IMG/VR virus record: IMGVR_UViG_3300042463_001805
Location: 33,377-97,376 of that record
Strand: one strand, 5' to 3'
Length of the DNA stretch: 64,000 nucleotides
DNA from: a virus
Part shown: piece after piece, positions 40,623-64,000 of the stretch
How positions within the stretch are numbered: the first letter of the stretch is position 1
Layout of the letters: each line of letters starts with the position of its first letter
The notes under the pieces: model-generated
Databases searched by the model: none
Told to the model about the DNA's origin: nothing
Seen by the model: only the letters and a program-made list of their open reading frames with translations
Position numbers and translations under genes: made by a program

Positions 40623-40623
40623 A

Positions 40624-41798: not shown

Positions 41799-41804
41799 AT
41801 TTTT

Positions 41805-42419: not shown

Positions 42420-43277
42420 TTAGATAACTTTATTAATTATATTTATAAATTCTTTCATTCTTTCTAAGAAAGTGTGATTTTTTATAACGTGATCATAACC
42501 ATTATTTGTTATTAACTCCCTTTCTTTTTCGTTATTTAAATAATAATTAATTTTTTCTAATAAATCAAATACTGAATCATACGTTACTAAATGATCACCA
42601 ATATCAAATAAGTCCTTTAAACCTGGCGTTTCATTTGTTAATAAAAAAGTTTTACACCCTAATGTTTCAAAAGTTCTATAATTTAAATCATCAGATATGT
42701 TTCTGTTAAAATGTATTTTATATTCGTTTATTGATTCCACCATATCATGTCCTATCACAAATTTATCAACCTTTAAATTAAATTTTTTAGAAATATGATC
42801 TAACCACCCACCTCTATTATTTATGTTACCACAAAAACCAACATCGTATTTTTTTTCAATATCCAACGGATATATTAAATCATCGGGATATGCGTTTGGA
42901 AAATAAAAACTTTTATGTTTTGTAAAAAGTTTGTCGTGACCATACACCGAATTAAGAACAATATCAATTTTATTTTTGTCACATAAATTTATGTGATCAT
43001 TTAAAACCACATGTGAGTCTATAGACCAAAATACCTTTAATTTTTTTGATTCAGATAAATCAGGAACCCAATTATTGTATGGGTAATTTTCAATTAAAAA
43101 AATAATATCGTGTTTTTTTTCCAACTCACTAAATGGAATATTATATGTTTCGTAACCTAGTCCCCAAACAGTGGTTTCGTAACCTAATTTAGTCAACGAT
43201 CTTTGTATATTTAAAGACTCTCTAAATTTCCAATTTTTTTCATGTCTTCCTTTTTCTTGTATTATTAGTACTTTCAT
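42420..43277 (-). CDS. GT-B glycosyltransferase (CgeB/family 1-like)
   Basis: A 285-residue protein starting MKVLIIQEKGRHEKNWKFRE. The central YDVGFCGNINNRGGWLDHI and the late NISDDLNYRTFETLGCKTFLLT, then YDSVFDLLEKINYYLNN, match the CgeB-like group of glycosyltransferases, in which R-x-FE-x-x-(A/G)CG is the donor-binding signature. Sugar specificity is not deducible. It abuts the FkbM gene without a gap. Confidence 0.78.
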   Translation of the reverse strand: MKVLIIQEKGRHEKNWKFRESLNIQRSLTKLGYETTVWGLGYETYNIPFSELEKKHDIIFLIENYPYNNWVPDLSESKKLKVFWSIDSHVVLNDHINLCDKNKIDIVLNSVYGHDKLFTKHKSFYFPNAYPDDLIYPLDIEKKYDVGFCGNINNRGGWLDHISKKFNLKVDKFVIGHDMVESINEYKIHFNRNISDDLNYRTFETLGCKTFLLTNETPGLKDLFDIGDHLVTYDSVFDLLEKINYYLNNEKERELITNNGYDHVIKNHTFLERMKEFINIINKVI

Positions 43278-43288
43278 ATTTAATTTTT

Positions 43289-43987
43289 TTAATAATCTTT
43301 ATTGAAAATATTTTCAACGCTCCCATTTATGCCTAATGTTAGTTTACAAATAAAAACATTATTTACTAATTTTTTTTCAAATATAAATCTATGTAAAAAG
43401 CCATCAATCGCAGCCCTAATAGGGAACATTTTTGATTTTATAGTTTCAATACAATTTATATTGATTGCGTACATGTGAGTACAAGGCACACCCAAACACT
43501 TTAAAAAAAATTTATTCCCAATATCGGAGGAGTTATTGTTGTTAATGTAGTTTGAATTTCCTAAATACAAAAAATCCCAATCTTTAGGAATGTTTTTAGT
43601 TATTTCGTCAAAGTCATTTAACTTATCTGTAAAGATACAGTCATCCTCCATTATTAAACATTTTTCATAATTATTTTTTATAATGTCTTCGTATATTTCA
43701 CGATGCGAAAAATTTAACGCAATATCACCAGAAGATAAAATATGACCAGCACCACCACACGTGCAATTTTGATCACAATAAAAAGTATTACCTTGATATG
43801 CTAATAATTTTTTTATTTTAAGATCATTAATGTTTAAACTATTTTTATCAATTGCGTTAAATACTTCGTAGTTTTTTAAGTTTAAATTTTCAAATTGTTT
43901 GATAATTAAATTCCTTCTTTCTACAGATGATGGTAAATTTATAACATAAATTTTATCAAAAAAAGAATCTAAAGTTTGGATATGCAT
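43289..43987 (-). CDS. glycosyltransferase family 25-like
   Basis: A 232-residue protein with the GT25 N-terminus FDKIYVINLPSSVERRNLI, the NAIDKN segment, the ALNFSHREIYEDII helix, the metal-binding CLIMEDDCIF and the late GVPCTHMYAININ. GT25 enzymes add galactose or glucose to lipooligosaccharides. A CDQNCTCGGAGH cysteine cluster in the middle is unusual and may bind zinc. It lies within the minus-strand glycan run. Confidence 0.83.
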   Translation of the reverse strand: MHIQTLDSFFDKIYVINLPSSVERRNLIIKQFENLNLKNYEVFNAIDKNSLNINDLKIKKLLAYQGNTFYCDQNCTCGGAGHILSSGDIALNFSHREIYEDIIKNNYEKCLIMEDDCIFTDKLNDFDEITKNIPKDWDFLYLGNSNYINNNNSSDIGNKFFLKCLGVPCTHMYAININCIETIKSKMFPIRAAIDGFLHRFIFEKKLVNNVFICKLTLGINGSVENIFNKDY

Positions 43988-44002
43988 AATAAATAGTATA
44001 TA

Positions 44003-44581
44003 TTAAATTTTTTCAAAAATACAGAAATTTTTTTTTATCCAAGGCAAAGATGCTGACTCTCTGGCTTTTTGTGTTTCATCTAACAAAAATTTAAATCCCA
44101 TGAACTCAAATTTTTTTATTACTTCGTTTACATCAACCTCGTTTACGTGACCCAACCCCCCTTGATTAGGTTGTGCCCAACTCATAAAAACATATTTTTC
44201 AGAATGTTTTTTTATATTATTAAGAACAGTTTTTTCATATTCTTTAGGTATGTGTTCTATAACCTCTAAACACATTATTGCTCCTTTTTTATTTAAATTA
44301 AATTCTTTACTTAAATCATGTTCTATTATGTTATTAAATTTTAAATTTTTTGAGCTCATTATTTTTCCCTCAACTCCAATTAACTCTGTTTTTTTTAAAA
44401 CACTTTCAAAAAAACTTAAATAATATCCTGTTGAACACCCAAAATCAATAATACAATTAATTTTTTGTTGTTTTGAAAATTCCACCAAAAAATTAGATAA
44501 TCCCAAATCTAAATGTATTGACTCATCATGATCACTATCATTGTAATCCCAAAAACCTGTTTTATGTATGTTAATTGTCAT
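44003..44581 (-). CDS. SAM-dependent methyltransferase
   Basis: A 192-residue class I methyltransferase: motif I CIIDFGCSTGYYLSFFES, TELIGVEG, MCLEVIEHIPKEYEKTVLNN (the EVIEHI motif common in methyltransferase family 11/23) and YVFMSWAQPNQGGLGHVNE. Substrate unknown; a sugar or sugar-nucleotide target is likely by context. The 13-base gap to the following gene indicates one operon. Confidence 0.8.
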   Translation of the reverse strand: MTINIHKTGFWDYNDSDHDESIHLDLGLSNFLVEFSKQQKINCIIDFGCSTGYYLSFFESVLKKTELIGVEGKIMSSKNLKFNNIIEHDLSKEFNLNKKGAIMCLEVIEHIPKEYEKTVLNNIKKHSEKYVFMSWAQPNQGGLGHVNEVDVNEVIKKFEFMGFKFLLDETQKARESASLPWIKKNFCIFEKI

Positions 44582-44593
44582 TTTTTTTTAAAA

Positions 44594-45211
44594 TTAAAGT
44601 TTATAATAATATAATGGTTCTGGTAAACAATTAACCCTATGTCCTGAGCTGTAAAGTTTTTTATAAAAATCCCAATCCTCATTAAATTTTAAATTTTCGT
44701 TAAATCCTATTTTTTTTGCAATTTCAGTTTTGAAAATAACCGTTGGGTGATTAATCTTATTAACATGGTTTAATTTTTCAAAAGTTAGTCCTTCAATATC
44801 GTCCTTTTTATTACACCCTACACCAACAACATTTCCTTCATTATCTATATCAAACATTTCTGTTGATAAAAAAGTAATTTTATTTTCAATCATGTGGTTT
44901 ATTTGTTTTTCAATTTTTTGTGGATGCATATAATCATCAATATCGCACCAACAAGAATATTTAGTATTTGATAGATTTAATAATTTATTTCTAGAGAACC
45001 CCCTACCCATATTATTTTTGTTTTCAAAATAAATTAATTTCTCACCAATGTATTTTTCAATAACGTTTTTAGTATTGTCATTTGAACCATCATTAAGAAA
45101 AATAATTATAAAGTTTTTATAAGTTTGTTCAAAAATACTTGTTATACACCTGTCAATAAATTTTTCACCATTGAAGCATGCTATTAATATTGAGATTTTT
45201 TCCGCATCCAT
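44594..45211 (-). CDS. glycosyltransferase family 2
   Basis: A 205-residue GT2: KISILIACFNGEKFIDRCIT and SIFEQTYKNFIIIFLNDGSNDNT form the classical donor-binding start, NNMGRGFSRNKLLNL follows, and CWCDIDDYMHPQKIEKQI carries the D-x-D metal site. It is shorter than typical GT2 enzymes (about 250-300), lacking most of the C-terminal acceptor region, but ends with FNEDWDFYKKLYSSGH, the E-D-W-D catalytic segment. Activity is therefore plausible. Confidence 0.87.
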   Translation of the reverse strand: MDAEKISILIACFNGEKFIDRCITSIFEQTYKNFIIIFLNDGSNDNTKNVIEKYIGEKLIYFENKNNMGRGFSRNKLLNLSNTKYSCWCDIDDYMHPQKIEKQINHMIENKITFLSTEMFDIDNEGNVVGVGCNKKDDIEGLTFEKLNHVNKINHPTVIFKTEIAKKIGFNENLKFNEDWDFYKKLYSSGHRVNCLPEPLYYYKL

Positions 45212-45222
45212 TTTTTTGAATG

Positions 45223-46026
45223 TTAAGTAGTTTTTATCTTTTTTATTACTCCATTTTCTAAATTCATATTTAAACCATTACTATAATCTAAAGGTAATAT
45301 ATTATTTAAAGATTCAAATACTTTAACATAATCTTTATGTACACAAACGTGATCAGAAGGATAAACATACTCAAGAAAATAAATTTCATAATCTAATTTT
45401 CTAATTGTGTCAAACAAATTTTTAGAACCATATCCAAATTTGTTTAATTGAAACTCTTCAAATTCAACAATCATTATTGGTTTGTGTTTTTTTATTGTTT
45501 CTATACCCCCCTCTAAAATAAATTTTTCATATCCCTGAACATCAATTTTAATCAAGTCAACTTTCTCTAAATTCATAGAGTCTAAAGTTTTAACATTTAT
45601 TGATTCTCCCCCATGACCAATACTTAAATCACCAATATTTACCCCATTCATATTATAATCTATGGGTGACATTTCCTTTGTTTCTTCAATGTTCCCTAAC
45701 GCATCCTTAAAAAGAATACAATTTTCTATTTTGTTTTCTTCTATATTTAATTTTTGTATTTCATACATTAGTGTTTGAGGTTCAAAACTAAAAACTTTTT
45801 GGCATAGTTTGGATGCGATTATAGAGTGCCAACCATAATTACTACCAACATCTAAAAAAACAGAATCTTTTTTTAAATTTAATTTTAAAAAATTAACTAT
45901 ATGTGGTTCCCATATTTTTTTATTTATTATATCTCTACCCATACAGTCGTTTTGTATTGTATGGATTTTAAAATCATCAAACTCGGTTAAAACAAGGTTT
46001 GATTTAATTTTTTCATTAATTATCAT
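45223..46026 (-). CDS. FkbM-family methyltransferase
   Basis: A 267-residue FkbM protein, longer than the one at 41805. Motifs: SVFLDVGSNYGWHSIIASKL, VFSFEPQTLMYEIQKLNI, NVKTLDSMNLEKVDLIKI followed by DVQGYEKFILEGGIETIK, and PIMIVEFEEFQLNKFG. All expected SAM-binding features are present. It overlaps the following GT4 gene by 11 bases. An O-methyltransferase acting on a sugar residue is the likely role. Confidence 0.87.
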   Translation of the reverse strand: MIINEKIKSNLVLTEFDDFKIHTIQNDCMGRDIINKKIWEPHIVNFLKLNLKKDSVFLDVGSNYGWHSIIASKLCQKVFSFEPQTLMYEIQKLNIEENKIENCILFKDALGNIEETKEMSPIDYNMNGVNIGDLSIGHGGESINVKTLDSMNLEKVDLIKIDVQGYEKFILEGGIETIKKHKPIMIVEFEEFQLNKFGYGSKNLFDTIRKLDYEIYFLEYVYPSDHVCVHKDYVKVFESLNNILPLDYSNGLNMNLENGVIKKIKTT

Positions 46027-47083
46027 TTTTTGAATTATTATATAAATTTATGTATATTTTTTCCATTTTTTTAGAAATTACTTTTTCTTCAAAGTCCTTA
46101 GATCTTATTTTTGCATTATTAGACCTAAAATCATAATAATTTTTGTCGTTTATCAATTTAAAAATCTCATCACAATAATCAATTTCGTTATTACTAACAT
46201 AACCACCATCTGAAATTATTTCAGATTGTGCATTGTAACCCGCATAATGCGAAACAACAGGATTACCATACATCATTGATTGAGCAATTGCGGTACCAAA
46301 AGTTTCACCATCACTTCGGTAATGTAAAAAAACGTCTATTGTTTTATGAAAATCATCAATGTAATTGTCATCGTTTGTTGTTTCAACTATAATACACTCA
46401 TTATTTAAGTCCAATTCATTTATTTTAGATATTGTAAAATTACATGCACCAATTATGATGTATTTAAAATTTACACCTTTATTTTTTAATAACTTTAAAG
46501 CATTTAAAGCGATTGGGTGAAAATTATCTTTTCTACCTATTCTACCAAAAACAAAATAATCTTCGGGTATATTATAAAATTTTTTTAAATCATTCGCATT
46601 TGGGTTTTCTTCAGGTATTGGATTGTAAATCATTATATCGGTTCCTCCCCTCATTTTATTTATTGTTTCACTTATTGAAATTGAGCGATCTAAAAACTCA
46701 CTATTATCTCTAAAACCAAATATATTTGTTTCAACTTGTATTGGACAAAATCTTTTTACAAACGGCCATTCATAATAACCTCCTCTAGCAAAATGAAAAA
46801 TATCAAAATTGTATTTTTTCAATACGTCATAAAAATTTGTTTCAATAAAACTATATCCTTGTTCGGGACCTGTTTTATGGTTTTTGGCACTAAAACTAAT
46901 TAATTTATTATTGTCAAAATTATTAATTATAAAAGGTAATCTATTATTATCTGCTTCTTCTCTGTAAATTATGTATGGGTCAAATATATTTTTGTCTAAA
47001 TTTAATATTATTCTTTCATGTGATCTCCATGTACCAGCGTAATCAACTGTGTGTGCATAAAAACAAATTTTAATTTTATTCAT
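46016..47083 (-). CDS. GT-B glycosyltransferase (family 4)
   Basis: A 355-residue GT4: the N-terminal ICFYAHTVDYAGTWRSHERI resembles the acceptor-side loop, FVFGRIGRKDNFHPIALNAL starts the C-terminal Rossmann domain, and GETFGTAIAQSMMYGNPVVSH is the E-x7-E donor site (one position is Gln rather than Glu). Asn- and Ile-rich composition matches the AT bias of the locus. Sugar specificity unknown. Confidence 0.85.
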   Translation of the reverse strand: MNKIKICFYAHTVDYAGTWRSHERIILNLDKNIFDPYIIYREEADNNRLPFIINNFDNNKLISFSAKNHKTGPEQGYSFIETNFYDVLKKYNFDIFHFARGGYYEWPFVKRFCPIQVETNIFGFRDNSEFLDRSISISETINKMRGGTDIMIYNPIPEENPNANDLKKFYNIPEDYFVFGRIGRKDNFHPIALNALKLLKNKGVNFKYIIIGACNFTISKINELDLNNECIIVETTNDDNYIDDFHKTIDVFLHYRSDGETFGTAIAQSMMYGNPVVSHYAGYNAQSEIISDGGYVSNNEIDYCDEIFKLINDKNYYDFRSNNAKIRSKDFEEKVISKKMEKIYINLYNNSKNDN

Positions 47084-47730
47084 TATAAGTGGTTTACATG
47101 TTCGGGATATAACATTTCATCTTTTTCATTAAATGCTTGACCCACAAAATATTTATTTTCTCTCGTTTTTGGAAACGTCTTATGTTCAAAATACTCATCG
47201 TGAACTAAACAATCAAGTCTTATTAGTGGATAAACTTTTTCTCTTAAAAAATTTTGGTCTACTTGCCAAAAATTTCCTTTAATGTAGTCGTTGATCATAT
47301 TTTTCATATTTGACACGACATTTTTTTTGGATCCCCACATACCCCCTAATATTTCAGTCCCATGAGCCGGATGATCCCTCATAATATGAAATCCTTTATC
47401 TGAAGATAACCACTCATCTACTGCATATTTTTCTCTCATATTTAATCTAGAATCACAATCTCTAACAATAACAACATCAACATCACTATCAGATGCAGGA
47501 TAAAATCTCCAAAACATGCCAGTCCAATCACCATCAACTTCCATATCAATCAATTCAACATTATCAAAACTTTTTAATTTTTCTAACGTTTCAGATAAAG
47601 TGGTTCTACCATAATAAAAACGACAAATCCATTCAGGATAAATTTCTTTTGCTAATTCGGCGTTTCGTATTGCCCCAACATTATAAACTGGATTTTCTCC
47701 CCATAGTGAAAACGATATTATTTTTTTCAT
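47083..47730 (-). CDS. GT-A glycosyltransferase-like protein
   Basis: A 215-residue protein, ISFSLWGENPVYNVGAIRNA, then EWICRFYYGRTTLSETLEKL and VDVVIVRDCDSRLNMREKYA with a D-C-D metal-binding triad, MRDHPAHGTEILGGMWG and FWQVDQNFLRE. This pattern occurs in a group of glycosyltransferase-like proteins (VRDxDSR motif) of polysaccharide loci. It shares its first base with the GT4 gene stop region. Function as a hexosyltransferase is inferred. Confidence 0.72.
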   Translation of the reverse strand: MKKIISFSLWGENPVYNVGAIRNAELAKEIYPEWICRFYYGRTTLSETLEKLKSFDNVELIDMEVDGDWTGMFWRFYPASDSDVDVVIVRDCDSRLNMREKYAVDEWLSSDKGFHIMRDHPAHGTEILGGMWGSKKNVVSNMKNMINDYIKGNFWQVDQNFLREKVYPLIRLDCLVHDEYFEHKTFPKTRENKYFVGQAFNEKDEMLYPEHVNHL

Positions 47731-48395
47731 ATATAAAAATTATTTGTTTTTCTCAGTTGAAATGTTGAGTTGTCGTGATGCCAATCTTTTATATTATTAT
47801 TGTGTACAAAATCAGTAGAACCAAAACCCCAATCAGGATGTTCATGTCTTATTATTACTTGATCAATATAGGTTTGCCTTTTTAATATATTACCAACCTC
47901 CATAAATTCATTATCCGAAAAACAAGACTTATAGTCAGGATGATAAATATAATTAAATCTTTCGTAATATTTTTTCCCTAAAATACATAAAGTATTAAGT
48001 CTACTACCTTGATAACCGTCATTAAACCACAATACTCCATCAGTGTCAGGATATAATTCGTTCATTTTATTTCTTATTATTTGATCATACCCTAAAACTT
48101 GCGGGACCATATCATCAGAAGCCAATATAACAATATCCCATTTTTCTTCTAAATCATTAATATCTCTATTAACCGCATGTATCTTAGACACACTTTTACC
48201 AAAAACGCAAGTTAAATTTTTAAATGTACTCAAAACATCTTTAGTGTGTTGATTATTCATTTCGGTATCATCTTCATCCAATGAGATTAAAAAATGAATA
48301 TTTTCTTTGTCATCACACAAATCATAATATTTTTTTAAAACAGATAAGAATTTTGTTTTTCTTCCTCTTGTTGGGAACTTAACTAATATCCTCAT
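47727..48395 (-). CDS. GT-A glycosyltransferase-like protein
   Basis: A 222-residue protein: LVKFPTRGRKTKFLSVLKKY, FLISLDEDDTEMN, WDIVILASDDMVPQVLGYDQ (D-D metal site), DGVLWFNDGYQG and LCILGKKYYERFNYIYHPDY, with GFGSTDFVHNNN near the end. It resembles family 2-like glycosyltransferases found in phage and bacterial glycan loci. It overlaps both neighbours by a few bases, indicating tight co-translation. Confidence 0.7.
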   Translation of the reverse strand: MRILVKFPTRGRKTKFLSVLKKYYDLCDDKENIHFLISLDEDDTEMNNQHTKDVLSTFKNLTCVFGKSVSKIHAVNRDINDLEEKWDIVILASDDMVPQVLGYDQIIRNKMNELYPDTDGVLWFNDGYQGSRLNTLCILGKKYYERFNYIYHPDYKSCFSDNEFMEVGNILKRQTYIDQVIIRHEHPDWGFGSTDFVHNNNIKDWHHDNSTFQLRKTNNFYI

Positions 48396-50032
48396 TAATT
48401 TAAAATTTTTATATATTCTTCTTTTATTTTTTTTGCAACTTCTAAACTATCAAATCTATTAAAATCTTCAGGTACATTATGTTTTTCTTTGTTTAAAATA
48501 TAACCATTTTCATCTACATTGTAAATCCATCCTGATTTCCCACATAGCCAACCTTCAATTGTTGTTCTACCTAAAAGTATCCCCGCAGTCTCAGAACAAT
48601 TTTTGACAAAAGTCTCTACTTTACTAGTCGCTTCAAAATGTTTTACATGTCTATTTTTTAATATATCTTCTAAATAATTTGATTTATTTTCTCCTACTAT
48701 CCATAACATTTTATTAATTGATTTTGAATACTCAACCAAATCCTTTATTGTGTTTTCTCGTAAGTAATCTAAAGTACCCACAAATAAAACATACCCATCA
48801 TCTTTTGTATTTTTTTTGTTAAATCTATTTGTATCTATTGGGTTGTAAATTACTTCAGTATTATTTTTATCAACCCCAAATTTTGTTGTTATATGTTCTT
48901 GAATTTCAGGTCTGATACAAATGTATTTTTTTATTTTTTCATTAATTACAGGATTTTCAAGTTCAATAACTTCAGAATGTATTGTACAAATTTTATCAGT
49001 GTTTGGGTACATCTGACACATTTGATTTGTGACTGGTAAATGTTGTGTATGAATAATATCATAATGAACCTCACCAATTTTATACATTATATTAGTTTGA
49101 GATACTTGTGGTCCTTGTGGTGTTTGTAAACTCCATTTTCCGTCCCCTAATTTATAACCAGGTGCTTCGTTAAATGATACTACTTTAATACCTTGTTGTT
49201 GAGCTAATTTTGAAAGTGGTCCATTAATATCAGATAAGACGGTAACATCACAATTTAATTTTTTTAAACCTCTCGCTAATTCATAAACATACATTTCGGA
49301 TCCCGTAAAGTTTTTAAAAAATAAACAAGATAACAATACTTTTAATGGTGAGTTAATAGTTAAATTCCTTTTAACTTTTACCGGTAAAACATCTTTATAT
49401 TTTTCTGCAAATATTTCTCTATTTTTTTCCCATTGTTCGTTTGTTTGACCAATAGATTTATGAGTTACTCTTATGTCGTAAACAACACCAATTTTTACGT
49501 CTTTTATAAAATTTGTAAAAGAAAAATCAACATCATAAAAATGAAATCCATTTATCTCTTCATTAAATTTTTCTTTTATTTTTTTTCTGTTTACCACAAT
49601 AAAAAGACCATCAACTAAAACTACATCGTCTATTTGGTTTCCTGAACTTGCAGAATATCTTGATTCCCATTTTTTTCCTCCATGTTCGTGATTGACAATA
49701 CCTTTCATTTTTGAAAAGTCTTCCCACCATCTTCCTGATTTTGGCATAATTGTAGTTCCTGCCAAACCTAAAATTCCGTATTCTGGTTTTCTTTTGAAAT
49801 GATTTAATATTTTTTGACCCCAATTTTTTGAATCAAAATATATATCATCGTGACATAATACTAAAATGTCATTATGTGATTGCAATAAAATTTTATTGTA
49901 TACTTCAGTTAAAGAATACTCACCATTATTTTCAATAGGAATAATTTGAATATTTGGCACTCCTGACGTTTTTTGTAACATCTCTACAAATCCATCATCA
50001 ATTTTTCTAGTTGAGAACCCTACTGTAATCAT
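48395..50032 (-). CDS. two-domain glycosyltransferase (GT-A plus GT-B)
   Basis: A 545-residue fusion. The N-terminal ~215 residues resemble StrF-like GT2 domains: TVGFSTRKIDDGFVEMLQKT, YNKILLQSHNDILVLCHDDI, GILGLAGTTIMPKSGRWW, VDGLFIVVNRKKI. The rest is GT-B: VLLSCLFFKNFTGSEMYVYE (acceptor-side start with G-S-E), NTEVIYNPIDTNRFNKK and DGYVLFVGTLDYLRE, with SETAGILLGRTTIEGWLCGK as the donor loop. Two active sites on one chain would add two sugars in sequence or act on two acceptors. Such fusions are typical of polysaccharide assembly. Confidence 0.82.
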   Translation of the reverse strand: MITVGFSTRKIDDGFVEMLQKTSGVPNIQIIPIENNGEYSLTEVYNKILLQSHNDILVLCHDDIYFDSKNWGQKILNHFKRKPEYGILGLAGTTIMPKSGRWWEDFSKMKGIVNHEHGGKKWESRYSASSGNQIDDVVLVDGLFIVVNRKKIKEKFNEEINGFHFYDVDFSFTNFIKDVKIGVVYDIRVTHKSIGQTNEQWEKNREIFAEKYKDVLPVKVKRNLTINSPLKVLLSCLFFKNFTGSEMYVYELARGLKKLNCDVTVLSDINGPLSKLAQQQGIKVVSFNEAPGYKLGDGKWSLQTPQGPQVSQTNIMYKIGEVHYDIIHTQHLPVTNQMCQMYPNTDKICTIHSEVIELENPVINEKIKKYICIRPEIQEHITTKFGVDKNNTEVIYNPIDTNRFNKKNTKDDGYVLFVGTLDYLRENTIKDLVEYSKSINKMLWIVGENKSNYLEDILKNRHVKHFEATSKVETFVKNCSETAGILLGRTTIEGWLCGKSGWIYNVDENGYILNKEKHNVPEDFNRFDSLEVAKKIKEEYIKILN

Positions 50033-50628
50033 AAACCTGTTGAGCCAAAACCTTGATTATTCCTATCTTTTTCACCAATCTCTTCCACTTTAACTAAATT
50101 AACCCATTTACCATTAACCACAGGACAAAGTACTGCTTGTGCCACCTTTTGACCCTTTTCAATTTTTATTCTTTCTTTTGTGGTATTAAAAATAATAACT
50201 TTAATTTCACCCTGATACCCACTATCAACAGTCCCTGGTGAATTTAAAACCATTAATCCTTGATTTAACGCTAATCCACTTTTACTTCTTACTTGTATTT
50301 CATAACCATCAGGAATGTCAAATCTTAATCCTGTTGGTATTAATTTTCTATCGTGACCCTGTACCCACAACTCTTCTGTTGATCTTAAATCAAACCCTGA
50401 GTCTGATTCGTAGGCGTATTCGGGTTCTTTATTATCTGAATCATTTGTATATTCTAAATTTATTTTACCCGCAGACTTATCCATCAAAATAGAATCTAAA
50501 TCATCAATATTAGAAACGATATCATTAATATCAAATTGTGAGTTTGGCATTCCAAAATCAGAAACTTTATTTTGTACGGACTTTAATTTTTTTATATTGT
50601 CCATTACTTTGTTTAACTTTTCACTCAT
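50029..50628 (-). CDS. dut: dUTPase with N-terminal extension
   Basis: A 199-residue trimeric dUTPase. All five motifs are visible: YESDSGFDLRS (73-83), RSKSGLA (114-120), LNSPGTVDSGYQGEI (128-142, catalytic Asp135), IEKGQKVAQ (156-164) and RNNQGFGSTG (189-198). It hydrolyses dUTP to dUMP, preventing uracil incorporation and feeding thymidylate synthesis. The first ~57 residues are an acidic helical extension absent from the usual ~150-residue enzyme. It overlaps the exonuclease gene by ATGA and sits between glycosyltransferase genes, showing that the glycan genes are interleaved with core nucleotide metabolism. Confidence 0.93.
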   Translation of the reverse strand: MSEKLNKVMDNIKKLKSVQNKVSDFGMPNSQFDINDIVSNIDDLDSILMDKSAGKINLEYTNDSDNKEPEYAYESDSGFDLRSTEELWVQGHDRKLIPTGLRFDIPDGYEIQVRSKSGLALNQGLMVLNSPGTVDSGYQGEIKVIIFNTTKERIKIEKGQKVAQAVLCPVVNGKWVNLVKVEEIGEKDRNNQGFGSTGL

Positions 50629-51353
50629 TTTAATTCTTTTAATTTTTTAATAAAATCAATTAATACATTAACATCTTTTTCGCAGTACTCCGCAATTTCT
50701 TGTAACCTATTATGGCTCCAATAAGCTTCATGAACCATCCCACCATTTACTTCTCCATCTTTAGGTGTTGGTATATCTAAAGTGGCACATACTAAATCCA
50801 ATGACCCAATCGCAGAATATGCACCATATTGCCAAATTTCTTTTGTGTCAATCGCTTTAACTTCCCACGGCTTAGTATCATATGAAGGAAGTATTTTAGA
50901 TGGTTTAATACCATTAATGATCATACGTTTTGCCATCATGGGTATGTCAAAATTTTTAAGATTGTGACCACAAAGATAAAAATCTAAATTATGACACCTA
51001 TCAAGAAGATTTCTAACTTGAAGTAGTAACTCTTTTTCATCGTCACCTGAAAATGTTTGTTTTTTAATATCGCCATTATCCATAACAAACGCCATAGAAA
51101 CACAAACTATCTTTGCAAATTCAGGAACAAGTGCTGATCGTTTAAAATAAACGTCATTCATTTTTTGAAGTTCTTCCTCAAGACCATCAGTTTCATAATT
51201 GTCTTCAGGAAATCTTTTTAAAAACCAATCAAAATATTTTACAAATTGTTCGGCAATTTTGGGATTACTTTCTTGACATGATGACCAATCTTTACAAAGT
51301 CCTACAGTCTCAATATCTAAAAATAATATTTTTGTTATGGGTATGTTTATCAT
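50625..51353 (-). CDS. DnaQ-like 3'-5' exonuclease
   Basis: A 242-residue DEDDy-type exonuclease: ExoI LFLDIETVG (Asp13, Glu15), ExoII LCGHNLKNFD (Asp136) and ExoIII AEYCEKDV (Tyr223, Asp227). It is most like the stand-alone exonuclease domains related to family B DNA polymerases. It could proofread for a phage polymerase encoded elsewhere or degrade DNA/RNA ends. It overlaps neighbours by four bases on each side. Confidence 0.88.
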   Translation of the reverse strand: MINIPITKILFLDIETVGLCKDWSSCQESNPKIAEQFVKYFDWFLKRFPEDNYETDGLEEELQKMNDVYFKRSALVPEFAKIVCVSMAFVMDNGDIKKQTFSGDDEKELLLQVRNLLDRCHNLDFYLCGHNLKNFDIPMMAKRMIINGIKPSKILPSYDTKPWEVKAIDTKEIWQYGAYSAIGSLDLVCATLDIPTPKDGEVNGGMVHEAYWSHNRLQEIAEYCEKDVNVLIDFIKKLKELK

Positions 51354-52561
51354 TTTACTAATGTTTTATATAATTCTGCTCTATCTTTTGTTACTTTATT
51401 TAAATCATATGTGTCTTTAACAGTTTCATATAATCTTTGACCTAAATCATAAGCCCAATTAGGATTATCAATTAATTTTTTCATGTATTTAGACCAATCA
51501 CCGTTTCTTACTTCGTCCACTAAAAGTGCGTTTCCATCAACAAATTCACCATTTTTTAATGAATGTTTTAAATCAATAGTATATGGACCAACGTTTGATG
51601 CAATAATCGCTTTCTTATAAAAACCTGCTTCAATAACTTTAAGTTGTGATTTTACTCTATTAAATATATGGTTTTTAATTGGTGCTAACGATACATCAAA
51701 CCATCTATAATTGGATGCGTAACTTGTAACGGGTTTTGTCCATACACGATTATAAAAAGGTAAAACATCAGAATTATAATCTTCTTCTTTAAACTTCATT
51801 AAAAAATCTTTGTGTTGAGGATCGACCATTCTATAGTTATCTGTAAAGATTTCTTCATATCTTGCCCAAACAGTCTCTTCAGGTCTAATAGGTCTTTGTT
51901 TTTGTTCTCCCGTTTCTCTATTAATTTCAGTCACAGACCCTCTAATATCAAAACCACATAGATACATACTAAATTGATCTTTGTGTGATTTTAATTTATT
52001 GATGGTACCATCTAAAAGTTTTAAATCATGTAAATGTGATGACCCACCTAACCAACCAAAACGTAACTTATCTGATTTTAAAGTTTCTTGTTGGAACTGA
52101 GGTTCATTTGGGTTAATTGCGTTTGGTAAAACAAAAACATTCTTATTTAATTTTTTTATTTCATCTGCAAATATTGTTGTGGTTGTTGTTACATACTTAG
52201 CGACTTTCAAATTAGCCATTATTTTTTCATGTAACTTATTTTGTACAACTAATTGATGAACTGGATGTTCTTTTGTTGGTAACCAATAATCGTCTAAATC
52301 CATAATTGTAATAATACCTAAATCATTTAAACGCTGTATTAACATTGGTGCTTGGTTATAATCTTGACCAATACTTCTATGAAAATGAACAATGTTATAT
52401 TGTTTCCAATAATTAATATCATTTATTTTTGGTTCGTAATCTATGTCTACGTGAAAATCTTCTGAATGATTATTTTGTAACATAACGTGTGGATCCACAC
52501 TTCTAAACTTCCCAACACCTGTTCTATCTGAAGGGAGTACTAATACTTTAATTTTACTCAT
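51350..52561 (-). CDS. GT-B glycosyltransferase-like protein
   Basis: A 403-residue protein: VLVLPSDRTGVGKFRSVDPH, YNIVHFHRSIGQDYNQAP, ITIMDLDDYWLPTKEHPVH, YVTTTTTIFADEIKKLNKNV, LRFGWLGGSSHLHDLKLLDG and a C-terminal SQLKVIEAGFYKKAIIASNV donor-site region. The N-terminal part and the D-D-Y-W motif resemble family 4-like glycosyltransferases of phage and polysaccharide loci. It is the upstream end of the glycan locus on the minus strand, and a terminator lies just before it. Confidence 0.75.
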   Translation of the reverse strand: MSKIKVLVLPSDRTGVGKFRSVDPHVMLQNNHSEDFHVDIDYEPKINDINYWKQYNIVHFHRSIGQDYNQAPMLIQRLNDLGIITIMDLDDYWLPTKEHPVHQLVVQNKLHEKIMANLKVAKYVTTTTTIFADEIKKLNKNVFVLPNAINPNEPQFQQETLKSDKLRFGWLGGSSHLHDLKLLDGTINKLKSHKDQFSMYLCGFDIRGSVTEINRETGEQKQRPIRPEETVWARYEEIFTDNYRMVDPQHKDFLMKFKEEDYNSDVLPFYNRVWTKPVTSYASNYRWFDVSLAPIKNHIFNRVKSQLKVIEAGFYKKAIIASNVGPYTIDLKHSLKNGEFVDGNALLVDEVRNGDWSKYMKKLIDNPNWAYDLGQRLYETVKDTYDLNKVTKDRAELYKTLVK

Positions 52562-57184: not shown

Positions 57185-58195
57185 ATGAGTTTAGTTACAA
57201 GACAATATGGGCCTGACGCTAAGGGGTCAAAATTAACCAATTTAGATATGGATAATAATCTTTATTATCTACAATCTATTGGGGTTTCAGGGTTAACATT
57301 TTCTTCAAGCACACTAAGTTTAATAAATCCAACTGGAGGTACCATATCAAGTGTAGATATCAACGTTGATAATAGATGGTACATACCTTCAGGAACAACA
57401 GTAGAAATTGATTCTTATTCACAAAGTTTTATTTATGGTGATTTGTATGTTTTTGGCACTTTATTATTAAATGAAAATTCTCAATTAATTGTTTTAAATG
57501 GTGATGTATATACTTTAAGTGGAGGAACAATTAGTGGTTCAGGACAAACGGTTTTGGTTGATTTACCAACATTTGGTGATTTAATTACTTCAGGGACATA
57601 CTCTGGAGGAACACTAACACTTTCAACAAGTAACGGGGCCGATGTCACCGTTAATGGATTTTATACAGGAACAACAGATGTTTTCACAACAGGAGCAACA
57701 TATAATGACGGAATTATTTATTTTAACACAAATGTATCTCAATCGGCATATACTGTTAATATTAGTTCTTTAACTGGAGATTCAAATACGTTTTTAACCG
57801 CATCAACATACGATAGTTCAACTAATACAATTACTTTAACTGATAATACAAATAATAGTTTAAATACATATATTGACGGATTTAGTGGGTTAACTATAAA
57901 TGGAATACTTTCGGCAACAACATATCAAAATTTACCTGATAACGTTACAGGTAAATATCTTCCATTAAGTGGGGGTACTGTTACCGGCTCTACTTCTTTT
58001 ACAAATGGATTAACGGCAAATACACTATCAGCAACAACTTTACAAGCATCAAACACATATATAGATTCAACAGGATACCTTTATTTTGGTGATTCATCAA
58101 CCAATGGTTCATGGAGAATGTCAATATCAGGAGCAAACTTCATAGTTGAAAAAAGGGTGATCGGTAATTGGATAATTTCAGGAACATTTAATTAA
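57185..58195 (+). CDS. tail-fibre protein
   Basis: A 336-residue Thr/Ser/Gly/Asn-rich protein. It begins with MSLVTRQYGPDAKGSKLTNL and LDMDNNLYYLQS, a form I associate with fibre N-termini. Beta-structured repeats follow (GNLTLSTSNGADVTV-like segments, GTLLLNENSQLIVLNGD). A module GGTVTGSTSFTNGLTANTLS is shared with the last gene of the window, and the ATTLQASNTY segment resembles the ATTISGTTLYGDG start of the next gene. The end, MSISGANFIVEKRVIGNWII, is a compact strand pair. It precedes the repeat fibre by 6 bases, so they are probably one transcript. Confidence 0.7.
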   Translation: MSLVTRQYGPDAKGSKLTNLDMDNNLYYLQSIGVSGLTFSSSTLSLINPTGGTISSVDINVDNRWYIPSGTTVEIDSYSQSFIYGDLYVFGTLLLNENSQLIVLNGDVYTLSGGTISGSGQTVLVDLPTFGDLITSGTYSGGTLTLSTSNGADVTVNGFYTGTTDVFTTGATYNDGIIYFNTNVSQSAYTVNISSLTGDSNTFLTASTYDSSTNTITLTDNTNNSLNTYIDGFSGLTINGILSATTYQNLPDNVTGKYLPLSGGTVTGSTSFTNGLTANTLSATTLQASNTYIDSTGYLYFGDSSTNGSWRMSISGANFIVEKRVIGNWIISGTFN

Positions 58196-58201: not shown

Positions 58202-60478
58202 ATGGGATTTAATACAGACATAATAAGTGCAACAACAATAAGTGGAACAACACTCTATGGTGATGGTTCTAATTTAACGGGAGTTAGTGGTGGGGGATCA
58301 TTTACTGGATTCACCGCAAATGCAAGTAATAATATATTACAGAGTGGATTTTCATTAAATAATACAACAACAGGAACGGATAATGTTGCTTTGGGTAGGT
58401 TTGCGTTAAATTCAAATACAACAGGATGCCATAATATTGCATTAGGCAATCAATCCTTACGTAGTAATACGGGGGGGACGTTAAATGTTGCGATTGGTTG
58501 TTTTTCTTTATTTTCTAATACAAGTGGATGTCGTAATATTGGTATTGGTAGTGGGGTATTATATAGTAATACTGCCGGATCCAATAATATTGCATTAGGT
58601 AATTCGGTTTTAAACGCTAATACTACGGGTCGTTATAATCTTGCGTTAGGTTGCTCGGTGTTAAACACCAACACAACAGGAGGTTGTAATATTGCTTTGG
58701 GTCGATTCAGTTTATGTTCAAACACAACAGGAAGTAACAACATATCTTTGGGTCAAAATTCACTACGAGCAAATACAACAGGAAATAACAACATATCGTT
58801 GGGTTGTTGTTCACTTTACAGTAACACAACTGGTCGCGACAACGTATCGTTGGGTAGGTATTCGCTCTTATCTAACACAACAGGATGTTTTAACGTAGGG
58901 TTAGGATTTTGTTCTTTACGTAATAATACTATAGGAGGTGTAAACGTAGCAATTGGTTATCGTACTTTAGCAAATAACATTAATGGTAGTAGTAATACGG
59001 CGATAAATGCTGGCGCATTAAGTAAAAATATTTCAGGCACAGAAAATATTGCGATTGGAAATAGTTCCCTATATAATAACACTACAGGTAGTAATAATAT
59101 TAGTTTAGGTCGGTTTTCTTTGTATAATAACACCACAGGTTGTCATAATATTGCATTAGGTCAGTATGGGTTACGTTGTAATACAACGGGAGGGTATAAT
59201 GTGGCATTAGGAAGATATAGTTTGAGGTCAAACACTATGGGGTTTAACAACATAGCAATTGGTAACCAAAGTCTATTTTCAAATACTGTTGCGAGCAATA
59301 ATATTGCATTAGGTAGATATTCTTTATGTAATAACGGTATGGGTGGAGACTCAAATATTGGACTTGGTTATAGTACGTTGCGATGTAACACAAATGGAAG
59401 TTTTAATATTGCGATTGGATTAAAGTCTCTTCAGACAAACTCTACAGGTACAAGAAATATTTCTTTTGGTGATTGTAGTATGTTATTTAATACAAACGGA
59501 AGTTGTAATATTAGTATGGGTAGGTATTCTTTACGTAATAACACAACCGGATCTCATAACATTGCTTTGGGGCTTATTAGTTTATGTTCAAATACTACGG
59601 GGGATAATAATATTGCATTAGGTAGGTATTCTTTACGTTGTAATACAACAGGATGTTCTAACATTGCTTTAGGTTGTAATTCTTTGCGTAGTAACACTAC
59701 GGGATTTAATAATATCGGTATTGGTAGACAATCACTATTTTGTAATACCGATGGTTCAGTAAATATTGCTATAGGTTATAATGCCTTACGTAATAATAGT
59801 AGTGGTGGTGGTAATATTAGTATTGGTTGTAATTCTTTACGTTATAATACAACAGGTTTTCAAAACGTTGGTTTAGGTACTTGTACTTTAATAAACAATA
59901 CTGAAGGCGCTCGAAATATCGCAATAGGGAACGATACTTTAAGACAAAATACTACCGCTAATTCTAATACATCCGTAGGCTTTGAATCTATGCGTTCAAA
60001 CACCACCGGTAGTTATAATACTTCACTAGGTTTCGGTTCTATGGTATGTAATACGGTAGGTGGTGATAATGTGGCCATTGGTAGACAATCGTTGTTTTGT
60101 AACACTAGTGGATGTACAAATGTTGCTTTAGGTTCTTGTTCTTTAAATGTTAACACAATAGGAAATTATAACGTATCACTTGGTGGTGCTTCTTCACCTT
60201 ATAACACAATAGGTTCTAATAATGTTGGTGTTGGTTTTCTTTCTTTAATTGGAAACATAACAGGTAACACTAACACGGCATTAGGGTCTCGAACAAACAC
60301 TGGAAATTTTTCAAATTCAGTTATTTTAGGTGCTTGTGCAACCGCAACCGCAAACAATCAATTCGTTTTAGGTTCCTCAACTTATCAAGTTGGTCCAATA
60401 AATATAGAATCTTGCACTTCAACAAGAACATTATCTGTAGTATTAAATGGTGTTAACCATAAAATATTATTGGTATAA
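58202..60478 (+). CDS. repeat fibre with YadA-head-like 17-residue repeats
   Basis: A 758-residue protein. After a start module (ISATTISGTTLYGDGSNLTG) come 38 tandem 17-residue repeats, residues about 57-702, consensus NTTGxxNIALGxxSLxS; copy 20 has one extra residue. The pattern N-x-A-(L/I)-G resembles the YadA-type left-handed beta-roll head found in trimeric adhesins. Many repeats carry Cys at variable positions. The C-terminus (NSVILGACATATANNQFVLG, then STRTLSVVLNGVNHKILLV) looks like a capping strand set rather than a membrane anchor, and there is no signal peptide. It is a trimeric tail fibre or spike, by inference. Confidence 0.82.
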   Translation: MGFNTDIISATTISGTTLYGDGSNLTGVSGGGSFTGFTANASNNILQSGFSLNNTTTGTDNVALGRFALNSNTTGCHNIALGNQSLRSNTGGTLNVAIGCFSLFSNTSGCRNIGIGSGVLYSNTAGSNNIALGNSVLNANTTGRYNLALGCSVLNTNTTGGCNIALGRFSLCSNTTGSNNISLGQNSLRANTTGNNNISLGCCSLYSNTTGRDNVSLGRYSLLSNTTGCFNVGLGFCSLRNNTIGGVNVAIGYRTLANNINGSSNTAINAGALSKNISGTENIAIGNSSLYNNTTGSNNISLGRFSLYNNTTGCHNIALGQYGLRCNTTGGYNVALGRYSLRSNTMGFNNIAIGNQSLFSNTVASNNIALGRYSLCNNGMGGDSNIGLGYSTLRCNTNGSFNIAIGLKSLQTNSTGTRNISFGDCSMLFNTNGSCNISMGRYSLRNNTTGSHNIALGLISLCSNTTGDNNIALGRYSLRCNTTGCSNIALGCNSLRSNTTGFNNIGIGRQSLFCNTDGSVNIAIGYNALRNNSSGGGNISIGCNSLRYNTTGFQNVGLGTCTLINNTEGARNIAIGNDTLRQNTTANSNTSVGFESMRSNTTGSYNTSLGFGSMVCNTVGGDNVAIGRQSLFCNTSGCTNVALGSCSLNVNTIGNYNVSLGGASSPYNTIGSNNVGVGFLSLIGNITGNTNTALGSRTNTGNFSNSVILGACATATANNQFVLGSSTYQVGPINIESCTSTRTLSVVLNGVNHKILLV
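58370..60308 (+). repeat. 51-base in-frame tandem repeats (about 38 copies)
   Basis: Each 51-base unit encodes one 17-residue NTTGxxNIALGxxSLxS repeat. Codons differ between copies, so the array is old or under selection rather than a recent amplification. Confidence 0.85.
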
Positions 60479-60499: not shown

Positions 60500-60739
60500 A
60501 TGGAAGAAGAGTTTATAGTAAACACACAACAATCAATTAGTGCCGCTTTTGACTCAGTTAATTTAATTAACGAAACAATCACTAAACCTACCGATGATGA
60601 AAATAAAGATTTGGTAAAAAGAAATGTTGAACATTTAGAAATTATGTTAGGTAAAGAGTTTTTTTCAAACGCACTAACAACAGAACAAAGATCTGAAATA
60701 GATAACACAATTATTTCAGGTAAAAATTATTTGAACTAA
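60500..60739 (+). CDS. small unknown protein in the fibre operon
   Basis: A 79-residue acidic helical protein, MEEEFIVNTQQSISAAFDSV, then NLINETITKPTDDENKDLVK and HLEIMLGKEFFSNALTTEQR. No known motif. It lies 21 bases after the repeat fibre and might be a fibre-assembly chaperone, which is inferred from position alone. Confidence 0.6.
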   Translation: MEEEFIVNTQQSISAAFDSVNLINETITKPTDDENKDLVKRNVEHLEIMLGKEFFSNALTTEQRSEIDNTIISGKNYLN

Positions 60740-60789: not shown

Positions 60790-61674
60790 ATGGAAAAATA
60801 TGCAATATTTCATATAGAAGGTGGTTTAGGAAAACACATCGCAGCAACCGCAGTTGCAAAAACAATTAAAAATAACCATAAAGATAGGAAATTAATAATT
60901 GTTTGTTCCTATCCCGAAATATTTATAAACCTACCTTGTGTTTGGAGAGTTTATAGAAATAATACAACATCATACTTCTATGATGATTTTGTTAAAGATA
61001 AAGATTCTTTAGTATTCAAACACGAACCATATTTTACAACTGAACATATTCACGGTAAATTACCTTTAATTCAAAATTGGTGTAATTTATATAACTTAAA
61101 TTGGTTAGGTGAAATGCCTGAAGTAAAATTCAATTTAAGAGAACAAATGGTTTTTCAAAAAAAATGGTCAAGAGAAAAACCGATATTTTTAATACAAACA
61201 AATGGTGGGCCATTATTAGATCAACCATTTCCTTATTCTTGGACAAGAGACATGCCACAGTTACTTTCTAAATCAATTGTGGAACAGTTTAAAAAAGACT
61301 ACCACATAATCCAAATATGTAGAAATGAACTTAACTTTATTGATGATGTTGAAGTACAAAGTCAACCAATGTCAAATATGGAGTTACTTTATCTTTTAAC
61401 GATGTCTGAAAAAAGATTGTTAATTGATTCAAGTTTACAACACGGAGCAGCTGCACTTAAATTACCATCAACAGTATTGTGGGTTGCAACAAATCCTAAA
61501 ATATTTGGTTATGATTTACACGACAATATAGTTGCAAATATTTCTAAAACTATACCGTTACCTGATTCATATTTATTTGATTATAACTTTCACGGGTCAT
61601 TACACGAATGTCCAATATTTGAAGGTGATGTATTATTTGATTTTGATAAAATTATTAATTCTTTAACAAAATGA
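60790..61674 (+). CDS. GT9-like (heptosyltransferase-type) glycosyltransferase
   Basis: A 294-residue GT-B-like protein. It starts YAIFHIEGGLGKHIAATAVA, which is the acceptor-side glycine loop, and near the end has RLLIDSSLQHGAAALKLPST with VLWVATNP, matching the S/D-S-x-x-x-H-x-A-A-x-L-x-x-P-x-x-x-L donor site of heptosyltransferase-like GT9 enzymes. Sugar donor and acceptor are unknown. It overlaps the sulfotransferase gene by ATGA, so the two are coupled, and both sit beside the fibre genes. Confidence 0.75.
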   Translation: MEKYAIFHIEGGLGKHIAATAVAKTIKNNHKDRKLIIVCSYPEIFINLPCVWRVYRNNTTSYFYDDFVKDKDSLVFKHEPYFTTEHIHGKLPLIQNWCNLYNLNWLGEMPEVKFNLREQMVFQKKWSREKPIFLIQTNGGPLLDQPFPYSWTRDMPQLLSKSIVEQFKKDYHIIQICRNELNFIDDVEVQSQPMSNMELLYLLTMSEKRLLIDSSLQHGAAALKLPSTVLWVATNPKIFGYDLHDNIVANISKTIPLPDSYLFDYNFHGSLHECPIFEGDVLFDFDKIINSLTK

Positions 61675-62489
61675 TAAAAAACATATTTTTTAACGCATCA
61701 CTACCAAGAGCAGGTTCAACTTTATTGCAAAATATTATGATGCAAAATCCTGAAATATATTCAACACCAACATCAGGTGTTGTTGAGTTTTTATTACAAG
61801 CAAGAACACTTTACTCAACAGGAGACGCATTTAGAGCACAAGATCCGGAATTAATGAAAAAAGGATTTAAAGGTTTTTGTAAAGGTGGGTTATGGGGATT
61901 TTTCAACGAAATCACAGATAGACCATATGTTTTAGATAAAAGTAGGGCATGGTCAGGTCACTTTTCTTTTTTAGAATTTTTTGAAGAAAACCCAAAAGTA
62001 ATAATTATGGTTAGAGACTTGAGGGCAATATTTGCGTCAATGGAAAAAAACTATAGAAAAAATCCACATATAGATCCGTTAATTGTTAATGGTGCAGAAT
62101 TAAAAAATATGACAACAGATTCAAGAATGGTCCATTTTTCTGTTTCTCCACCTGTCGGACCTTCATTAGAATGGTTAAAAGATTTGATACAACAAAATTT
62201 AGATCAACACATTTTATTTTTAAGATATGAAGATTTTTGTAAAAATCCAGAAATGGAAATTAAAAAAATATACAAGTATTTGGATCTACCTTACTACCAA
62301 CATGACTTTGAAAATATAGAACAATTAACAGAAGAAAATGATGTTATACATGGTATATTTGGTGATCACAAAATTGAATCAAAACTTAAAGAACCTCGTA
62401 AAGATTATTTAGAAATTTTAGGTGAACAAAATTGTGAAATAATAAAGCAAAATTATTTATGGTTCTTTGAAAAATTTAATTACTTCTAA
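61671..62489 (+). CDS. PAPS-dependent sulfotransferase
   Basis: A 272-residue sulfotransferase. The 5'-phosphosulfate-binding loop is NASLPRAGSTLLQNIMMQNP (PRAGST at 12-17) and the 3'-phosphate-binding region is VIIMVRDLRAIFASMEKNY with Arg and Ser in place. LDKSRAWSGHF and FLRYEDFCKNPEMEIKKIYK complete the family pattern. It transfers sulfate from 3'-phosphoadenylylsulfate to a hydroxyl group on a sugar or protein Tyr. Next to a glycosyltransferase and tail fibres, sulfation of a glycan is likely. Host PAPS supply would be needed. Confidence 0.88.
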   Translation: MIKNIFFNASLPRAGSTLLQNIMMQNPEIYSTPTSGVVEFLLQARTLYSTGDAFRAQDPELMKKGFKGFCKGGLWGFFNEITDRPYVLDKSRAWSGHFSFLEFFEENPKVIIMVRDLRAIFASMEKNYRKNPHIDPLIVNGAELKNMTTDSRMVHFSVSPPVGPSLEWLKDLIQQNLDQHILFLRYEDFCKNPEMEIKKIYKYLDLPYYQHDFENIEQLTEENDVIHGIFGDHKIESKLKEPRKDYLEILGEQNCEIIKQNYLWFFEKFNYF

Positions 62490-62545: not shown

Positions 62546-64000
62546 ATGGGAAGAATAATACAACAAAATAATGGTAAAACCACAATTTACGTTACAGGAG
62601 AAGATTTCAATAATTTAAGTGGAACCACTAACACTTATTACGTTGGGGTTGATTTAAATAGTGGGTCATTTGAAAAAAAGAATCCAGATGGTTCTCTTGA
62701 AGATTTTGGTGGAGGATCTTTTACAGGAGGTACAGTAACCGGCACAACAAATTTCACAAATGGTTTATCTGCCAATACATTTAGTGCTACTACATTGTTT
62801 GGTGATGGGTCAAATTTAACAGGAATTATAACTGAAATTTATACGTCTGTAACATATAGTGAATTATATGATTTATTTACAGGTGAAACATTAAATTCAG
62901 GATTGTATTACCTAATCAATGATTTTCAAACTTGTTATGACCAACCTGATTTTGACCAAAATGGTAATGCAATAGTAGGTAACAACTATAAAACAGGTGC
63001 AACAGAACCAATACTTGTATTAGCCACGGGTGTTAACTCTCTATCACCTAAAGCATATTCATTAGAATACCCTTTAGATGAGATTTCTTACGATATATCT
63101 TTTACCGTAACTGAAAGAACAGGTAATCCTGCAAAGGGTAGAATTACTGAAAGAATTGATGAAAGAGGAAATAGAACTGACTATGACTTTAGATCCGTTT
63201 TATTTAAAAGATATGATTTTTATTATTCAGAAAACTACTATTCAGGTACTCTGAGTATTGATGGTAGTGGTTTTGTTACTGGATCAGATACAGACTTTTC
63301 AAATAACTTTAGTGTTGGTGATGTATTGGGAGTTTATGAAGGGTCGTTTAGTAACCCAACAGGATGTTTTAGATACTACGAAATCCTTACAATTAGTGGG
63401 GCAACCGAAATGACTGTTACTGGTAATACCATTCAATCAAATTATAATACACCATATTCTAGAGGGATACAATTTAATGATTATAGAAGTTTTCATAAAA
63501 CAAACATAATTAGTAATACCGCTTACACCGAATATTTAACTTTTGAAGCTCCAGATGTGTTTAATGTAAAAATTGGAAATTACGCCAATCTTTATAATTG
63601 GCAGGAAAATCCCTTCTTGTTATCTAATAATGTATTTCTTGATGGGTCTTATTTAAATATTACTATAGGTGATGAGTCATATGATAATACATTTGATGAT
63701 GATATGAATGCATTATCTATTGGTAATAATTTTTATCGTAACATAATCACAAACGATTTTGATAGAAACACTATTGGTAATTACTTTAGAAATAATATTA
63801 TCATTTGTGATATGGCAGATAACCAAATTGGTAATTATTTTCAATATAATATGTTAGGGGACAACGATGGGCAAGACTTTGATCAAAATAGAATTGGAAA
63901 CTACTTTCAGGCAAACTTTTTAACATTTGCTGGAAACGAGTTTTTTAATAATGACATTGGTGACCTTTTCAACGGAAATTTAATTAATACCAGTTTTCAA
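62546..64000 (+). CDS. tail-fibre protein, 3' end outside window
   Basis: The first 485 residues of an open reading frame that continues past the window. It starts MGRIIQQNNGKTTIYVTGED, followed by a module shared with the two upstream fibre genes: GGTVTGTTNFTNGLSANTFS and FGDGSNLTG. Next comes a mixed beta section (YTSVTYSELYDLFTGETLNS, ERTGNPAKGRITERIDERGN). From about residue 350 there are long Asn/Ile/Phe-rich beta-helix-like repeats built on N-x-I-G-N-Y/F (NTIGNYFRNN, NQIGNYFQYN, NRIGNYFQAN). A parallel beta-helix tail-fibre or tailspike shaft is inferred. Confidence 0.8.
   Translation, partial: MGRIIQQNNGKTTIYVTGEDFNNLSGTTNTYYVGVDLNSGSFEKKNPDGSLEDFGGGSFTGGTVTGTTNFTNGLSANTFSATTLFGDGSNLTGIITEIYTSVTYSELYDLFTGETLNSGLYYLINDFQTCYDQPDFDQNGNAIVGNNYKTGATEPILVLATGVNSLSPKAYSLEYPLDEISYDISFTVTERTGNPAKGRITERIDERGNRTDYDFRSVLFKRYDFYYSENYYSGTLSIDGSGFVTGSDTDFSNNFSVGDVLGVYEGSFSNPTGCFRYYEILTISGATEMTVTGNTIQSNYNTPYSRGIQFNDYRSFHKTNIISNTAYTEYLTFEAPDVFNVKIGNYANLYNWQENPFLLSNNVFLDGSYLNITIGDESYDNTFDDDMNALSIGNNFYRNIITNDFDRNTIGNYFRNNIIICDMADNQIGNYFQYNMLGDNDGQDFDQNRIGNYFQANFLTFAGNEFFNNDIGDLFNGNLINTSFQ

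Follow-up and report, generated by a model that had tools for sequence, protein, structure and literature searches.

Phage-encoded glycosyltransferases glycosylate phage virion proteins, and the fibre regions of phage genomes exchange genes frequently. PAPS synthetases are fusions of ATP sulfurylase and APS kinase, and the LPS heptosyltransferases WaaC and WaaF belong to family GT9. TibC, which with AAH represents the autotransporter heptosyltransferases (BAHT), puts heptoses on serines of a β-helical adhesin (PMC4358343). Sugar and LPS gene clusters of the P-SSM2 type are found in cyanophages (PMC7824862), and the function of phage sulfotransferases has been called unclear (PMC10580990). Among titles and abstract openings in the open-licence literature, no description of a phage sulfation module for fibres was found.

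A glycosyltransferase-sulfotransferase gene pair among fibre genes

The window analysed here is a stretch of 64,000 nucleotides. It covers bases 33377-97376 of a virus record (IMGVR_UViG_3300042463_001805) that is 97,376 bases long, and it ends where that record ends. Matches to phrog_2, 213, 207 and 138 identify genes for a terminase, a portal, a head-maturation protease and a major head protein, from which we infer that the virus is a T4-like myophage. Three window proteins (5524-6141, 6162-6782 and 7454-8062, all on the plus strand) have the N-terminus MKRIVRLTESDLT(R/K)IVRRV(I/L)NEQ in common, and two more (24947-25657, plus strand; 25654-26097, minus strand) start similarly; this is possibly a head-targeting propeptide cleaved by the head maturation protease. 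The minus strand carries a glycosyltransferase cluster at 34420-52561, with GT2, GT4-like, GT25 and GT11 fucosyltransferase genes, an FkbM-type methyltransferase-like match and two genes that by appearance encode NAD-dependent sugar-nucleotide enzymes.

The gene pair lies on the plus strand. A glycosyltransferase of 294 amino acids (60790..61674) is followed by a sulfotransferase of 272 amino acids (61671..62489) whose start lies inside the glycosyltransferase stop, the two ORFs overlapping by the 4 bases ATGA. Upstream is the gene for a repeat fibre protein of 758 amino acids (58202..60478, plus strand), the proposed acceptor, which matches phrog_23837 (2.8e-107) and the tail-spike family phrog_4636 (3.1e-93). 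The fibre gene downstream (62546..64000, plus strand) matches the tail-fibre family phrog_1591 (1.4e-3) and is truncated at the contig end, 1.5 kb past the sulfotransferase. The initial annotation had described a GT9-like glycosyltransferase and a sulfotransferase overlapping by ATGA and flanked by tail-fibre genes. The ORFs, the Pfam matches of the sulfotransferase, the predicted fold of the glycosyltransferase and the tail-spike, virion structural and tail-fibre families of the flanking genes bear this description out. Two further plus-strand ORFs complete the region. One, at 57185..58195, encodes a fibre-like structural protein of 336 amino acids that resembles parts of fibre ORFs in two related loci (L001 and L020) and gave no significant family match in profile searches. 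The other, which separates the upstream fibre gene from the glycosyltransferase, is a small conserved ORF of 79 amino acids (60500..60739), for which the family search returned no known family; judged by eye it resembles family f11, which occurs in 11 loci near the sulfotransferase or a fibre.

The sulfotransferase scored above the Pfam gathering thresholds of both PF13469 (1.3e-14, 55.4 bits, cut-off 27) and PF00685 (5.3e-14, 52.7 bits, cut-off 22). In an alignment of 36 sequences, P12, R13, S16, T17, L18 and Q20 of its predicted 5′-phosphosulfate-binding loop, PRAGSTLLQN (residues 12-21, 61704..61733, plus strand), are invariant, and so are R115 and S123 of the putative 3′-phosphate-binding motif (RDLRAIFAS, 62013..62039, plus strand). 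These active-site residues are unchanged down to approximately 41% identity. When the family profile was compared with solved structures, protein-tyrosine sulfotransferases were the best matches (7.5e-11). By its sequence, the product of 61671-62489 is thus unambiguously assigned as a PAPS-type sulfotransferase.

Assignment of the glycosyltransferase was marginal by sequence. Against PF01075 (GT9) it scored 11.6 bits (E=0.17), under the sequence cut-off of 22, and its profile found no matches among PDB sequences. An AlphaFold2 model (pLDDT 91) compared with the PDB by Foldseek matched the GT9 structure 3tov (2e-9), WaaF (5e-9), TibC (2.9e-7) and WaaC (2.6e-6), and among the top PDB matches TibC had the highest query-normalised TM (0.66). 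The motif DSSLQH (D213-S214-x-x-Q217-H218, 61426..61443, plus strand) is followed by GAAAL, and within this DSxxQHxAAAL stretch D213, S214 and H218 are invariant in 31 aligned sequences. The predicted fold therefore upholds the assignment as a GT9-type GT-B glycosyltransferase. It shares its fold and the DSxxQHxAAAL-type motif with WaaC and WaaF, but it is short, falls under the PF01075 cut-off, and is encoded next to fibre genes rather than LPS genes.

As in the TibC and AAH systems (PMC4358343), the phage enzyme has a GT9-like GT-B fold; by gene neighbourhood the phage gene set stands beside a repetitive, probably β-structured, Ser/Thr-rich fibre or adhesin, and some phage relatives encode ADP-heptose genes. 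Unlike them, the phage enzyme is coupled to a sulfotransferase, and in a phage. It begins directly with the β-α lobe, without the N-terminal β-barrel of approximately 97 residues, and it does not have the four-Cys iron-finger set, C98 alone being nearly invariant. Membership of the TibC/AAH family was therefore rejected, as the iron finger and β-barrel that define it are missing. The enzyme may nevertheless work like that family.

Related loci and their putative sulfate-activation and heptose genes

Relatives of the sulfotransferase were found in 70 viral contigs, with 46-82% identity over the best segment, which excludes chance as the source of the finding; the seed patterns were taken from the window sulfotransferase, so the sample favours its kin. 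Only 10 of 50,697 named phage records carry it, every one at less than 34% identity. The initial annotation had called sulfotransferases rare in phages, which is true of named phage records but not of environmental viromes. Dereplication at 90% DNA identity reduced the 70 loci to 40. Of these, the glycosyltransferase occurs in 25, an APS kinase in 24, a small adenylyltransferase in 23 and a DUF2061 membrane protein in 25; in 18 the glycosyltransferase adjoins the sulfotransferase. A search of 17 sulfotransferase-bearing contigs found no such glycosyltransferase in them, though several are short fragments in which absence weighs little. Many contigs combine the sulfotransferase with a repeat fibre and lack this glycosyltransferase.

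APS kinase, adenylyltransferase and DUF2061 protein beside the sulfotransferase constitute a putative sulfate-activation cassette. The kinases match PF01583 (1e-14), and their PDB profile matches are headed by APS kinases (7e-18). On TIGR00455 (cut-off 138.7 bits) the stand-alone phage kinases scored 65-78 bits and a version fused to the adenylyltransferase (L087) 255.9 bits. The adenylyltransferase, of approximately 112-158 amino acids, is of the HxGH type with NadM-like proteins as best matches. It fell under the cut-offs for the Sat profiles PF01747 (22.8 against 24.3 bits) and TIGR00339 (14 against 323 bits), and its model (pLDDT 77) gave weak matches (E approximately 1e-3) to several HxGH adenylyltransferases, which does not decide the substrate. 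The pairing or fusion of an APS kinase with an HxGH-type adenylyltransferase recalls PAPS synthetases, but the partner here is small and NadM-like, not Sat. Such pairs and fusions (L003:7242-7637, L087:5314-6363, L088-L151) are also carried by many uncultured bacteria, by a haloarchaeon and by the phages DLP_6 and AhaSv.

Among 61 cellular loci with relatives of the adenylyltransferase, 57 have an APS kinase next to the gene or joined to it, the two being fused in 29. Among 26 such genomes, Sat was found in three and a strong CysD match in four, with both in one. Neither was found in 20 (18 if two weak CysD-like matches are counted); many of these genomes are MAGs whose completeness is not stated. 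One Crocinitomicaceae MAG has the order APS kinase-adenylyltransferase-DUF2061, then an ABC-transporter ATPase and, two genes further along, two sulfotransferases; this speaks for a role of the cassette in sulfate activation. A sulfotransferase motif near cellular adenylyltransferases was not significantly enriched (8/319 versus 1/236, p=0.086). Taken together, the sequences suggest the small NadM-like adenylyltransferase as a candidate for a new, third type of ATP sulfurylase. NAD salvage of the NadR kind was rejected as the main reading of the kinase and adenylyltransferase; the kinase matches APS kinases and not NadR kinases, and 57 of the 61 cellular loci pair the adenylyltransferase with an APS kinase, some of them beside sulfotransferases. 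A phosphoramidate pathway of the Campylobacter type was set aside as well: the nucleotidyltransferase belongs to the HxGH type, and no gene for a glutamine kinase was noticed.

No APS kinase was found in the 97-kb record of the window, nor in the contigs (53-158 kb) of the three closest sulfotransferase relatives (G001-G003), and PAPS may therefore come from the host. ADP-heptose genes were not found in most members, the window record included. In four loci (L038, L045, L047 and L048) a split HldE, an HldD-like epimerase and a cupin lie between APS kinase and adenylyltransferase, and in the marine virus AG-345-O18 similar heptose genes adjoin the sulfotransferase and a fibre-size ORF. The cyanophage-family contig MH319754 (AG-345-L05; L084:9480-22497) has two sulfotransferases and a glycosyltransferase alternating with large ORFs and with ORFs that are Fe(II)/2OG oxygenase-like by appearance. 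Like the P-SSM2-type clusters (PMC7824862) and the sulfotransferase genes of S-SRM01 and S-SKS1, the loci described here are phage-encoded sugar-nucleotide, glycosyltransferase and sulfotransferase genes. Unlike in those clusters, the sulfotransferase is tied to repeat-fibre genes and relatives add the APS kinase-adenylyltransferase-DUF2061 cassette.

Fibre repeats and sulfotransferase type

The fibre encoded at 58202-60478 contains 34 or more 17-residue units with the consensus NTTGxxN[IV][AS][LI]GxxSLxx, a period of 17 being given by autocorrelation. Thr or Ser is common at unit residues 2, 3 and 14. The protein contains almost no Lys (0.4%) or Glu (0.5%), and 3.8% Cys.

Repeat fibres in the related loci were scored by autocorrelation, with a threshold of 0.15, chosen by hand, for strongly periodic ORFs. 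A strongly periodic ORF with repeats of 14-18 residues lies at most five genes upstream of the sulfotransferase in 32 of the 40 dereplicated loci. Strong periodicity was found in 37 of 83 upstream ORFs and in 11 of 144 other ORFs (rank test, p=1.4e-7). In the sulfotransferase tree, neighbours of 17-residue fibres and neighbours of 14-, 15- or 18-residue fibres part without exception (15 and 19 rows respectively), the non-17 branch having a support of 96/100, and clustering of the fibre labels as tight as this was obtained in none of 500 shuffles. Thus the association with fibres, a check proposed in the initial annotation for the gene pair, is conserved among relatives and specific for repeat type, while coupling of the glycosyltransferase to the sulfotransferase is not obligatory. 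The window sulfotransferase sits in the 17-residue clade, other members of which often have no adjacent glycosyltransferase, and the ATGA coupling is therefore one arrangement among several.

A 304-kb phage contig (L086) contains both types on a single strand. A 17-residue fibre is followed by a first sulfotransferase (ST1), a small ORF, a glycosyltransferase and two 15-residue fibres, and then by GT8-like, GT9-like and further glycosyltransferase genes, a second sulfotransferase (ST2), APS kinase, adenylyltransferase and DUF2061, with one 63-aa ORF also in between. In this G006/L086 genome, the one phage that provides such a contrast, each sulfotransferase lies nearest to its own type of fibre, ST1 following the 17-residue and ST2 the 15-residue fibres. 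A longer form of the module was seen at L001:6833-10206 and L086:10398-13770; there, a GT8 and an additional GT9-like enzyme are encoded between the fibre and ST2 genes. Divergence of the glycosyltransferase parallels that of the sulfotransferase (Mantel r=0.84, 30 pairs), a correlation that still includes common phage ancestry. The match of sulfotransferase clade to fibre repeat could largely be explained by co-inheritance of neighbouring genes, and the linkage of sulfotransferase and fibre could be positional, fibre regions being hotspots of exchanged genes.

Proposed modification of the fibre and alternative explanations

The occurrence of glycosyltransferase and sulfotransferase beside repeat fibres, with activated-sulfate genes added in relatives, suggests that these phages sulfate their own fibres. 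We consider it probable, though with some reserve, that the pair is a fibre-modification module by which such phages sulfate, and often also glycosylate, their own repeat fibre after its translation. The sulfotransferase, acting in the host cytoplasm, would move sulfate from PAPS to the fibre, the acceptor being either a sugar first put on by the GT9-like enzyme or the repeat protein itself. The sugar donor would most likely be ADP-heptose, as for the structurally similar GT9 enzymes, and with acceptor sites densely spaced along the regular Thr/Ser/Asn repeat, the fibre shaft would become sugar-coated and strongly negative. Many relatives would supply donors through the APS kinase, the adenylyltransferase (probably an ATP sulfurylase) and the DUF2061 membrane protein, and a few could synthesise ADP-heptose; for contigs without donor genes, including that of the window, the host would provide them. 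The benefit may lie in receptor binding, solubility or shielding. As in phage virion glycosylation, a phage enzyme is proposed to decorate a virion protein, but here a sulfation step is added.

This proposal is close to the sulfated sugar on the fibre that the initial annotation had envisaged, with the fibre as the presumed acceptor. In at least 17 sulfotransferase contigs no such glycosyltransferase was seen, so the sugar may not be required in every case. Mimicry of algal polysaccharide, also put forward there, finds nothing in the analysis to support it. Only tentatively, and with more doubt than conviction, do we extend the proposal to a complete phage pathway for putting sulfated glycans on repeat fibres, in which a hitherto unrecognised small ATP sulfurylase and APS kinase would make PAPS, and a TibC-like heptosyltransferase and a fibre-type-specific sulfotransferase would produce polyanionic fibres in diverse phages.

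The pair might instead modify a host surface glycan, LPS or capsule, and thereby prevent superinfection or keep virions from adsorbing again to the debris of lysed cells. Such a role has been proposed (PMC7824862) for cyanophage clusters in which sugar kinases, HIGH nucleotidyltransferases, cupins, epimerases and glycosyltransferases occur together, and the sulfotransferase of Synechococcus phage S-SRM01 lies near glycosyltransferase and epimerase genes. The predicted membrane location of DUF2061 and the ABC-transporter ATPase and two sulfotransferases beside the Crocinitomicaceae trio point the same way. So does the window's own large glycosyltransferase cluster at 34-52 kb, with its GT11 fucosyltransferase, but that cluster is on the opposite strand and distant from the pair, beside which no flippase or exporter was noticed. 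The module also lies among late structural genes, with the repeat fibre upstream and, in L033 and some other loci, sheath and tube genes downstream, and the sulfotransferase clade follows the fibre repeat type, even within one genome. Host-receptor modification against superinfection, the alternative offered in the initial annotation, stays a live rival but an unlikely one, weaker than modification of the fibre.

Sulfation could also fall directly on Tyr or Ser/Thr of the fibre protein, with the glycosyltransferase acting independently on another site or protein. We regard this as improbable. In its favour, the profile comes closest, among solved structures, to protein-tyrosine sulfotransferases, and many contigs have the sulfotransferase and a repeat fibre without this glycosyltransferase. 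Against it, Tyr is at no fixed position of the 17-residue unit in the window fibre, the two genes are neighbours in 18 of 40 loci, and the two enzymes diverge in parallel. That the genes are mobile cargo from a hypervariable fibre region, auxiliary metabolic genes with no function in the virion, seems very improbable. Invariance of active-site residues to approximately 41% identity, the recurrence of donor-supply genes and the fit of sulfotransferase type to fibre type argue against it, even given the exchange of genes in fibre regions and the unclear function ascribed to phage sulfotransferases (PMC10580990).

Modification of the phage's own fibre would give phage sulfotransferases a concrete, testable substrate. 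If it is correct, phage-made sulfated virion proteins would represent new chemistry for phage particles, with a bearing on adsorption, host range and the stability of virions in water.
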